DNA from: Streptomyces sp. HB132
GTDB lineage: Bacteria > Actinomycetota > Actinomycetes > Streptomycetales > Streptomycetaceae
Assembly (NCBI RefSeq): GCF_016909575.1
Contig: NZ_JAFBGA010000010.1
Span: 62,001 to 126,000, forward strand
Length of the DNA: 64,000 nt
Direction of reading: 5' to 3'
In this document: positions 28,624 through 32,356 of the stretch, one piece after another
Layout of the letters: every line of letters starts with the position of its first letter
Position numbering within the stretch: the stretch's first letter is position 1
Notes under the pieces: model-generated
What the model was told of the DNA's origin: nothing
Databases searched by the model: none
The model's input: only the letters and a program-made list of their open reading frames with translations
Translations under genes and position numbers: made by a program

Positions 28624-29778
28624 TCAGCGCGTCCTGCCCCGCTTCATCTCCATGGCGGCCCGGCCCTCCGCTCCCCTCCGCTTCCACTCGCGCCGGGTCT
28701 CGGTGCGCAGCCGGGCGTCCGTCTTCGCCGCGATGCGGTGGTTCTCGCGGAGCAGCTTGCGGTAGCTGTCGAGACGCCGCTCGGACAGCGCCCCGTCCTC
28801 GATCGCGCCGAGCACGGCACAGCCGGGCTCGGACTCGTGGGCGCAGTCGTGGAAGCGGCACTGTCGCGCCAGGGCTTCGATCTCCGAGAAGACCTGGCCG
28901 ACTCCGGCCTCCGCGTCCCAGAGACCCACCCCCCGCAGCCCGGGGGTGTCGATGAGGACACCGCCCCCCGGCATCACGAGGAGGTTGCGCGTCGTGGTGG
29001 TGTGCCGCCCCTTGCCGTCCACCTCGCGCGCTTCCTGGACGTGCATCACGTCCTCGCCGAGCAGAGCGTTGGCGAGGGTCGACTTGCCGGCGCCGGAGGT
29101 CCCGAGCAGCACGCTCGTACCACCGCCGACGATCGCGCCGAACACGTCGACGCCCTCGCCCGTGGCGGAGCTGACCGGGAGCACCTGCACCCCGGGCGCG
29201 CTGCGCTCGATGTCCTCGACGAGGTGGGACAGGACGGCCACGTCCGGGACCAGGTCGGACTTGGTCAGCAGCACGACCGGGTGCGCCTCGTGACCCGCGG
29301 ACCGGGCGCCGTCGCCGAGCAGGGCGGCGCCGGCGGTGCTGGACATGGCCAGCGCCAGGAACCGTTCCAGCCGCCCCAGGTCCAGCTCGACCGCGAGAGA
29401 GACGCAGATGACGATGTGATCGATGTTGGTGGCGAGCACCTGCCCCTCGGAGCGCTGCGACGACGTCGAGCGTACGAAGGCGGTGCGACGGGGCAGGAGC
29501 GTACGGACGAACTGCGGGTCGCCGCCGGGGTCGACGGCCACCCAGTCGCCCGTACAGACGATCCGCATCGGGTCACGGGGCACCACGAACGCCGTGTCCG
29601 CCCTGACGACGCCGTCCGCGGTGACGACGTCGCACCGACCGCGGTCCACCCGCACCACGCGCCCCGGCAGGAGTCCCTGCTCGGCGTACGGGGCGAAGGT
29701 GGCGGCCCACGCGTCGTCCCAGCCGTACAGGGCCAGCGGGTGCGACGGAGCCGAAGCCTGGGAAATGGAGAAAGACAA
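28624..29778 (-). CDS. rsgA: ribosome small-subunit-dependent GTPase A
   Basis: A 384-residue circularly permuted GTPase that assists 30S subunit maturation. An OB-fold (about residues 20-105) is followed by GTPase motifs in the permuted order: G4 LLTKSD, then G1 LGTSGAGKST, then G3 IDTPG. A C-terminal zinc motif CRFHDCAHESEPGC ends the enzyme. The best start is TTG at 29778, with GAAGGG six bases upstream. The frame stays open to 29904 but would overlap the leader ORF. Its transcript appears to begin 165 nt upstream and to include a 23-residue ORF first. Confidence 0.93.
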   Translation of the reverse strand: MSFSISQASAPSHPLALYGWDDAWAATFAPYAEQGLLPGRVVRVDRGRCDVVTADGVVRADTAFVVPRDPMRIVCTGDWVAVDPGGDPQFVRTLLPRRTAFVRSTSSQRSEGQVLATNIDHIVICVSLAVELDLGRLERFLALAMSSTAGAALLGDGARSAGHEAHPVVLLTKSDLVPDVAVLSHLVEDIERSAPGVQVLPVSSATGEGVDVFGAIVGGGTSVLLGTSGAGKSTLANALLGEDVMHVQEAREVDGKGRHTTTTRNLLVMPGGGVLIDTPGLRGVGLWDAEAGVGQVFSEIEALARQCRFHDCAHESEPGCAVLGAIEDGALSERRLDSYRKLLRENHRIAAKTDARLRTETRREWKRRGAEGRAAMEMKRGRTR

Positions 29779-29842
29779 GGGAAACCCTTCACAAGGGCGG
29801 CCCCGGCACCGCGCGTTCAGGCGCGGAGGGAAAGGATGAAGG

Positions 29843-29914
29843 TCAGCCGGCAGCCGCAGGGGTGGGAACGATGCGCTTCGGGTCGTGGGCAGTGCCCACC
29901 GCAACGACAGTCAT
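29843..29914 (-). CDS. 23-residue leader ORF upstream of rsgA
   Basis: A short ORF running from ATG (29914) to TGA (29843). It has a very strong ribosome site (AGGAGGTGAGG ending 6 nt before the ATG) and sits about 30 nt after a good promoter. The peptide begins MTVVAVGTAH, has a DPKR centre and ends PTPAAAG. Its stop lies 64 nt before the rsgA TTG start, and no terminator intervenes. It could be a regulatory leader peptide coupling rsgA expression to translation, or a small stand-alone peptide. No homologue was recognised by eye. Confidence 0.5.
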   Translation of the reverse strand: MTVVAVGTAHDPKRIVPTPAAAG

Positions 29915-29950
29915 CAATGTCCTCACCTCCTGGTTCCTCGAACTGCGCAC

Positions 29951-29981
29951 ACCCTAGTCCGGCGGCTCCCCGGACCGTCAA
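29951..29981 (-). promoter_or_regulatory. promoter of the leader ORF-rsgA transcript
   Basis: On the minus strand, TTGACG (plus 29976-29981), a 19-nt spacer and TAGGGT (plus 29951-29956) match the vegetative Streptomyces consensus well. Transcription would start near 29944, about 30 nt before the leader ORF. Confidence 0.6.
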
Positions 29982-30096
29982 CAGGTTTTCCGGGAAACGG
30001 CGCCCGCACGGCGGATTGGGGCGACTTGGAAGAGATATACCCGAACAGGTGATACGCGTACACAAGGACCGGTCTCGGGCCGTTAGTGTGCCGGAC

Positions 30097-30597
30097 ATGA
30101 CCTCACCCAAAGCCGCCACCGCCCCTTATTCACCGGCCCAGTTGGGCACACAGATCCTGATCGGCTGGAGCGGGTCGAACCCCGGAACAGGACGTGAGAC
30201 CGCCTTCCTGCTCACCTATTCGCTCGGCGACGGCCCGGACGGGCCGGAGGTCGGCGCGAGCGCCATGCACACGGCGCTGCAGCGCAGCGGACTGCGGGTG
30301 GGAGGCGAGACGCTGGACGCCTCGGACCTGCCGAACCTTCCCGTCAAGCTGCTCGTCCAGGCCGGACAGGCCGTCCTGACGATGCCTCACTTCAAGGCGC
30401 AGTACACCGTGCCGCGCGAGTGGCTGGACGTGGCGCTGTCGGAGGGCAAGGTGCACGGGATGTTCGCCACCCGCCCGTGGCCGGTGGCCGTCCCCGGACA
30501 GCCGGTCTCCGAGGAGCTGCTGAGGTCCTTCGTTGGCGACCCCGAGATCATCAGGACCTCCGCCCACTGCCTCATGCCGGTGCGCAGCCTGGGCTGA
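30097..30597 (+). CDS. DUF5949-like protein
   Basis: A 166-residue soluble protein of a type common in Streptomyces. Recognisable segments are FLLTYSLGDGPDGPE, LPVKLLVQAGQAVLTMPH and the C-terminal AHCLMPVRSLG. No catalytic motif or signal peptide was seen. TAGTGT at 30084-30089 ends 7 nt before the ATG and no Shine-Dalgarno is visible, so the mRNA is probably leaderless. It is divergent from the rsgA transcript. Confidence 0.65.
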   Translation: MTSPKAATAPYSPAQLGTQILIGWSGSNPGTGRETAFLLTYSLGDGPDGPEVGASAMHTALQRSGLRVGGETLDASDLPNLPVKLLVQAGQAVLTMPHFKAQYTVPREWLDVALSEGKVHGMFATRPWPVAVPGQPVSEELLRSFVGDPEIIRTSAHCLMPVRSLG

Positions 30598-30748: not shown

Positions 30749-31156
30749 TCAGTTGTTGCCGACGCCGTTGCCCGAAAGCACCGGGATGTCACTCAGGATG
30801 TGCGAGAGCGGCTCGTCACCCTTGGCCTGGGTGGAGTTGTCCGCACACTGCTGGTTCTGCGGGTTGGACAGGACATTGACGTCCTGGACCGCGATCGGAA
30901 CGAGACCGATCAGCGAACCGACGTTGGCCTTCACCGGCAGAGCGATGCAGGGCTTGTTCAGCGAGCCCTGCACGAGGCTGAGCTGCGGGCTCTGGTCGCC
31001 CTTGGTGGAGCTGTTGCCGTACTCGGACTCGGCACCGTTGCCGTTGACGGTCGTGGTGCCGTGGTCGTCACCGATCGCCATCGCCGAGGGAGCCGCGGCG
31101 GCGGACAGACCGAGGAGGGACACAGCCACAGCGGCGCCGGCCATAATCTTCTTCAT
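30749..31156 (-). CDS. rodlin 1 (aerial-hypha rodlet protein)
   Basis: A 135-residue RdlA/RdlB-type protein that organises chaplin fibrils into paired rodlets on aerial hyphae and spores. It has a signal peptide (about 1-27, ending SAMA). The mature part has the rodlin blocks [43 protein letters not shown] and [15 protein letters not shown], with two cysteines. It is nearly identical to rodlin 3 and more distant from rodlin 2 in the same cluster. All three are on the minus strand, each with its own upstream region. Confidence 0.93.
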
Positions 31157-31767: not shown

Positions 31768-32178
31768 TCAGTTGTTGCCCGCGCCGTTGCCGGAGAGCAG
31801 CGGGATGTCGTTGAGGATGTGCGACAGCGCCTCGTCACCCTTGGCCTGGGTGGAGTTCTCGGTGCACTGCTGGTTCTGCGGGGAGGACAGAACGTTGATG
31901 TCCTGGATGGAGACCGGGACGAGCCCGAGGAGCGAGCCCACGTTGGCCTTCGCCGGCAGGGCGATGCAGGGCTTGTTGAAGGAGCCCTGGATCAGGCCGA
32001 TCTGCGGGCTCATGTCGCCGTGGGTGCTGCTGTTGCCGTAGTACTGGTCGGAGCCGTTGCCGTTGACCGACGTCGTGCCGGTGTCGTTGCCGATCGCCAT
32101 GGCCGAGGGGGCCGCGGCGGCGGAAACACCTGCGACGGAGGCGGCGACTGCCGCGGACGCCAGAATCTTCTTCATCAT
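31768..32178 (-). CDS. rodlin 2
   Basis: A 136-residue rodlin with a signal peptide ending SAMA. The mature part has the same blocks as rodlin 1 but with many replacements (STHGDMSPQIGLIQGSFNKP; VSIQDINVLSSPQNQQC; LSHILNDIPLLSGNG). It is the most divergent of the three copies here. GAAGGG lies 7 nt before the first of two tandem ATG codons. Secreted; acts at the aerial surface with chaplins. Confidence 0.93.
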   Translation of the reverse strand: MMKKILASAAVAASVAGVSAAAAPSAMAIGNDTGTTSVNGNGSDQYYGNSSTHGDMSPQIGLIQGSFNKPCIALPAKANVGSLLGLVPVSIQDINVLSSPQNQQCTENSTQAKGDEALSHILNDIPLLSGNGAGNN

Positions 32179-32230
32179 GAACGTGCCCTTCTGGAATTTC
32201 TCTGTTGCCCGCCTGTCCGGAGCGAACTGA

Positions 32231-32259
32231 ACAACTCCGTCCGGGCGGTTTGGGTTGCG
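32231..32259 (-). promoter_or_regulatory. candidate BldN-type promoter of rodlin 2
   Basis: On the minus strand, CGCAAC (plus 32254-32259), 17 nt, then AGTTGT (plus 32231-32236). It aligns block for block with the rodlin 3 upstream region and resembles the remembered BldN consensus CGTAAC-N16-CGTTGA. Confidence 0.4.
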
Positions 32260-32356
32260 CCACTTCACTCGAACGATTCCCCGGGCCGGTGATCAGCGCC
32301 CCGCACCCGGACTCCGCACGGCGAATCGACGCGACACGAGAGGGTGGCGCCGCGGT

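Follow-up and report, generated by a model that had tools for sequence, protein, structure and literature searches.

In translational attenuation of the ermC type, a leader ORF is followed by mutually exclusive hairpins which hide the ribosome binding site of the downstream gene, and a drug-stalled ribosome at the arrest site of the leader peptide frees that gene. In actinomycetes, a uORF governs the transcription of the regulatory gene whiB7/wblC via a Rho-independent terminator, with full translation of the uORF meaning off (PMC11550727); leader uORFs of 3-9 residues precede the ABCF genes tiaA and are5sc of S. coelicolor, where they sense ribosome-targeting antibiotics by stalling at the start codon (PMC12421871); and the E. 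coli topAI-yjhQ uORF senses several classes of ribosome-targeting antibiotics (PMC12121999), all as described in the accessible parts of these papers. A literature search, with most subscription-journal papers outside its coverage, found no paper on the rsgA leader described here, and the word RsgA is absent from the accessible text of a paper on Streptomyces RNA motifs (PMC11109978). Here we describe an rsgA leader in a 64,000 nt stretch of DNA from Streptomyces sp. HB132 (the window), and propose, with a probability of roughly 60%, that this leader ORF, together with the RNA up to rsgA, places an inducible rsgA paralogue under ribosome-mediated attenuation.

The initial annotation of this region had reported a promoter firing into a 24-codon ORF with its own ribosome site, 64 nt ahead of the TTG startcodon of rsgA, and all of these were found where it had placed them, on the minus strand. 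The RNA switch proposed here (29857-29776) is the partner of the leader ORF and for the most part falls outside the interval which that annotation covered. The features are as follows:

29985-29990, minus strand: GAAAAC, a match to GAAAWY, the motif of WblC, separated from the -35 box by 3 bp (from sequence).
29951-29981, minus strand: predicted promoter TTGACG-N19-TAGGGT, with -35 at 29981-29976, -10 at 29956-29951 and a spacer of 19 nt (from sequence).
29921-29931, minus strand: Shine-Dalgarno sequence of the leader, AGGAGGTGAGG (29931-29921), a purine-rich site kept across loci.
29843-29917, minus strand: leader ORF starting with TTG at 29917 or ATG at 29914, 24 codons plus TGA at 29845-29843 (from sequence and comparison).
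29846-29857, minus strand: segment A, the last four leader codons, GCGGCTGCCGGC, pairing with B in 98.7% of cells (57 rows).
29809-29826, minus strand: variable GC-rich hairpin within the A:B loop, missing in some loci (locus comparison).
29797-29807, minus strand: segment B, GCCGGGGCCGC, able to pair either with A or with the CCC preceding the startcodon (pairing comparison).
29793-29797, minus strand: segment C, CCCTT, able to pair with D (96.0% of cells paired).
29785-29789, minus strand: segment D, AAGGG, the likely Shine-Dalgarno sequence of rsgA (AAGG 3-11 nt ahead of TTG in 80/80 loci).
29776-29781, minus strand: segment E, CCCTTG, of which CCCTT pairs with D and takes in the TT of the TTG start (99.6% of cells paired).
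28624-29778, minus strand: the rsgA paralogue, an RsgA GTPase of 384 aa with its TTG start at 29778 (Pfam and NCBIfam).

Counted from the ATG, the leader peptide is MTVVAVGTAHDPKRIVPTPAAAG, which gave no match with either Pfam or NCBIfam, and no curated Rfam model matched across 29400-30400 up to E = 1. A simple σ70 scan found no promoter site at the leader, because it permits spacers of 16-18 only and the spacer here is 19. That spacer (29957-29975) is an inverted repeat, GTCCGG..CCGGAC, and similar GC palindromes were noticed by eye in some close relatives. A hairpin GTGGGC-ACT-GCCCAC is possible inside the leader (29885-29899), and GGC-NNT-GCC-C is kept in most of 81 leaders. The surroundings include a divergent gene of the DUF5949 family (30097-30597, plus strand; PF19374) and two alike, small, secreted-looking proteins (30749-31156 and 31768-32268, both minus strand) without Pfam match at 0.001, which presumably resemble rodlins.

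The gene downstream of the leader belongs to the RsgA family (PF03193, E = 3.9e-40, 138 bits, cut-off 30; TIGR00157, 138 bits, cut-off 100), and the same genome encodes a second RsgA elsewhere, 32% identical to that of the window and adjoining aroA (PF00275, E = 2.1e-105). In our reading the aroA-side gene is the housekeeping copy, whereas that of the window is the extra paralogue, a point missed by the initial annotation. In the accessible part of PMC7157823, the RsgA paralogues SCO6149 and SCO5211 are given among the WblC-activated genes of S. coelicolor and their paralogues, and by the order of that listing SCO6149 would be the WblC-activated one of the pair; as the other paralogue of our genome lies beside aroA, we infer orthology between SCO6149 and the window gene. 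The WblC motif in the same source is GAAAWY plus -35 and -10 boxes with 16-19 bp spacing, and the window promoter, GAAAAC-CTG-TTGACG-N19-TAGGGT, fits this motif ahead of an HrdB-type promoter. Within a set of 100 loci, the strict GAAAWY motif was present in 22 (0.0 in shuffles), and an A/T run of at least four just before the -35/-10 pair was present in 86 (0.15% in shuffles). By its promoter motif, the gene is thus a predicted member of the WblC regulon.

We then surveyed the leader in relatives by scanning named genomes with the RsgA protein, retaining the best 80 of 181 relatives with RsgA similarity as the sole criterion; all of these loci are titled Streptomyces, save one [Kitasatospora] papulosa. 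An in-frame leader ending in Gly-TGA precedes rsgA in 79/80 loci; measured from the last good start it is 19-24 codons long, and 36-77 nt lie between its stop and the TTG of rsgA (79 loci measured). The single exception, L052, has a one-base shift near the leader end which lengthens the ORF, and the L031 leader has a one-base shift as well. The frame is therefore kept along with the surrounding DNA, as the initial annotation had proposed to check. The ATG is absent in four loci (L014, L017, L048 and L102) which retain an in-frame TTG or GTG one codon earlier, and for this reason the true leader start is probably that TTG/GTG.

The distribution was also followed with an 88-nt covariance model of the RNA, from the leader end through the rsgA start, which matched 257/295 Streptomyces genomes and 89/119 genomes of the order, every match being in one of five genera; its training loci belong to this genus and in part to the genomes searched, and those match by construction. 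It outperformed both peptide searches by far: a single-peptide search found 23/392 genomes, and a peptide profile 151/392 at E ≤ 0.1, many rows being weak. Together with the survey, the reach of the RNA model bears out the earlier view that the short ORF is not accidental. Of 15 listed Streptomyces genomes without a match, 11 were checked, and the paralogue was present in nine and absent in two; all nine have the leader ORF in diverged form. In three of these nine (L214-L216) the leader ORF runs into or overlaps the rsgA start, and A and B are missing. This clade has lost the leader stop and the B region, and in L214 the D:E pair reads AAGGA/TCCTT, a both-sided change seen by eye. In other genera the paralogue was found in 3/15 genomes, with leader and TTG start in L221 and L224; no leader was seen within 330 nt in L222, which does contain the paralogue. 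Five genomes (L172, L173, L174/L175, L176/L177 and L178) have two copies of the rsgA paralogue, and both copies are preceded by a leader and switch of their own.

The set of 100 loci used for the pN/pS, promoter motif, duplex and folding or covering counts was chosen by a pattern including the core, the TTG and an open leader, so that openness of frame 0 is there by construction; it leaves out 14 of 114 loci, namely nine repeats, the other paralogue (L025) and four pattern misfits (L031, L052, L069 and L090). The 80-locus leader survey, the TTG and AAGG counts at the rsgA start and the paralogue checks in genomes missed by the model are pattern-free. pN/pS and site variability were analysed in the 81 of the 100 loci with 23-residue leaders, and the pairing alignments (A2 and A3) contain 57 rows out of a thinned set of 81, 24 having been removed by hand against redundancy.

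The leader frame has a pN/pS of 2.0 (pN 0.257, pS 0.127; 81 leaders), compared with 0.28 for rsgA (45 codons, 80 loci), from which we favour a role in cis of translation and RNA over selection on the peptide. Conservation of the peptide upstream of rsgA, which had been suggested as a check, is thus not where the signal lies: it is the start, stop, frame and RNA segments which are conserved in these comparisons, and not the peptide sequence. That the 23-24-residue peptide is itself the active element, either in trans or by being a specific arrest sequence, we consider most improbable, even with G23 invariant and M1, V3 and A9 nearly so (57 rows), as positions 6, 10-12 and 14 accept unlike residues with most third bases unchanged. 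Conservation of third bases extends over the leader from end to end (permutation p = 0.02), and the A:B stem accounts for only part of it. Segment A has next to no synonymous variation (pS 0.018). Its one base with a free choice is the first of codon 22 (entropy 1.56 bits), which is bulged in the A:B stem; the next most variable, the second base of codon 21, is C or T only, both of which pair with G. Comparison of the loci shows the last leader codons to be constrained as RNA.

The leader ORF also looks translated, judging from its conserved start, stop and frame. This bears on a further explanation, in which the folded RNA is the target of a ligand or a protein, RsgA itself for instance, with the leader ORF a mere bystander; this would fit conservation at the nucleotide rather than the peptide level, but we regard it as very unlikely, since the Shine-Dalgarno sequence, start and TGA are conserved, with TGA the stop codon in 79/79 leaders although it lies outside the A:B stem. 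Separately, frame +2 was considered as the real frame, being Cys/His-rich (D-C-x-C..C-P..H..H) with pN/pS below 1, but frame +1 is below 1 as well; frame +2 was rejected because it has stops in 9/81 leaders and no startcodon in the 18 bases before the ATG in 54/81, and because the TGA of frame 0 is kept.

With regard to RNA structure, loops vary and stems are mostly kept between loci. Segment A pairs with B (GCCGGGGCCRC) over 11 base pairs, standard in 98.7% of cells (57 rows), with both-sided changes at two pairs. This covariation is modest: the count of both-sided changes was equalled by 157/500 shuffles, and the covariation score by 15/500. D has a CCCTT on either side (C and E), and the startcodon is within E. 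C:D, part of the alternative fold, is paired in 96.0% of cells, and this fold shows no both-sided change. The start of rsgA is TTG, a rare startcodon, in 80/80 loci, within a stem and with the AAGG upstream; its invariance may be explained by the D:E stem, which would require TTG, as ATG or GTG would break D:E. In L221, A:B is kept with other letters, the cognate duplex having -21.3 kcal/mol, the duplex with a typical B swapped in -11.1 and shuffled ones -14.9 (sd 2.1), with 1/100 shuffles as good; L213 and L220 also have both-sided changes in A:B. Compared with shuffled B, A:B had a median z of -1.79 over 112 loci (42% below -2), a moderate effect only, and a shuffled B was as good as the own B in 13/100 cases for the window, 26 for L083 and 27 for L217. 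No A:B duplex fitted in L218 and L219, and in L223 a typical B is a better partner for A than the B of that locus. Taken by itself, the RNA of the window folds only slightly better than its shuffles (z = -1.67, 14/200).

Covering A in the local segment raised the predicted cost of opening the rsgA site by a mean of 2.63 kcal/mol, and by more than 0.5 in 95/100 loci, compared with +0.13 kcal/mol when the upstream sequence was shuffled (33.5% of 800 above +0.5) and +0.13 when the stop and loop alone were covered (5% of 98 above +0.5). With 30 nt of rsgA added, the mean was +2.2 kcal/mol (87/100), and with the full-length RNA including the whole leader it was +1.6 kcal/mol (70/100 up, 5 down); for the window itself, the +3.4 obtained with the local segment went to 0 with 30 nt of rsgA. 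The predicted shift of 2-3 kcal/mol is small. In several loci the fold predicted with A covered has B, now free, paired to the CCC ahead of the TTG, enclosing the C:D hairpin.

Since covering A makes the rsgA site costlier to open, a completed leader would mean off, and a leader stalled early or untranslated would mean on. In the attenuator that we propose, a ribosome which never reaches the leader end would allow A:B to form, leaving just the weak D:E hairpin over the rsgA start; a completed leader would have A covered and B free, so that B could pair with the CCC before the TTG and C with D, hiding the ribosome site. Translational coupling would predict the opposite, with ribosomes finishing the leader reopening the structure and re-initiating at the rsgA TTG, so that leader translation means on. 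The mere 36-77 nt between leader stop and TTG would suit this, as would the L214-L216 leaders overlapping the rsgA start, but coupling would have no need of an A:B stem, and the harder opening with A covered (95/100 loci, local model) points the other way; we think it unlikely.

Transcription might also end at the B:E plus C:D structure. If this hairpin, followed by TTGTCTTTC, were a terminator as at whiB7/wblC, with A:B as antiterminator, then the same segments would serve transcription attenuation, the logic which the wblC uORF follows according to the accessible part of PMC11550727, and the hairpin has -13.1 to -14.9 kcal/mol in L056, L070, L114 and L018. We place this on the unlikely side, as the hairpin abuts the startcodon and overlaps the ribosome site, the U tract is poor, above all in loci with TTGACTTCC, and the sole hit of a terminator scan was a 5-bp stem (D:E), near chance (1 found, 0.6 expected).

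The RNA model gave one further match in the genome of the window (L171 2297-2380; G000:C19:23296-23379), ahead of a gene whose 417-aa product fuses a class I methyltransferase to a GNAT acetyltransferase. The leader MTVATTAAPRSNRSLIVLRVTG, A, B, C, D and the TTG start are all present, and the same module precedes the methyltransferase-GNAT fusion in four other genomes (L179-L182); the methyltransferase-gene copies use GGG/CCC in A:B. By eye, the L171 promoter is without a WblC-like A/T run, and so the part common to both copies seems to be the leader switch and not the promoter. Tentatively, and at somewhat less than even odds, we suggest a portable Streptomyces leader-ORF switch, used before at least two unrelated genes (the rsgA paralogue and the methyltransferase-acetyltransferase fusion), through which ribosome capacity would gate a 30S-assembly GTPase in a second layer on top of WblC control, with busy ribosomes meaning off and stalled or scarce ribosomes on.

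The attenuator would then act after activation of the promoter by WblC: translation inhibitors or a scarcity of working 30S subunits would leave the leader stalled or spared, and the paralogue would be switched on. Of the initial idea that the leader senses translation capacity, a translated leader reporting on translation is retained as the best model, and the sensing itself we infer. If true, the state of translation would act back, through an attenuator, on a factor for making 30S subunits, and this in most of the species sampled from a genus known for antibiotics directed against translation. It would possibly also be a concrete case of the tuning of WblC regulon genes at the translational level, which the accessible part of PMC12421871 raises as a further layer.

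Among the known systems, the whiB7/wblC uORF is alike in its short leader ORF, in full translation meaning off and in its regulatory network, a likeness at the level of description, but it acts through a terminator on the transcription of a regulator, whereas the rsgA hairpin is predicted over the start region of the target gene itself (compared with the accessible part of PMC11550727). The tiaA and are5sc leaders are likewise Streptomyces leader ORFs, and in the accessible part of PMC12421871 tiaA responds only in a translational reporter; unlike the rsgA leader, they are of 3-9 residues and stall at the start codon. The topAI-yjhQ uORF, as far as the accessible part of PMC12121999 describes it, concerns another gene in another species. 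With ermC-type attenuation the rsgA leader shares the leader ORF and, by prediction, the exclusive hairpins, whereas its predicted trigger is that no ribosome occupies the end of the leader.
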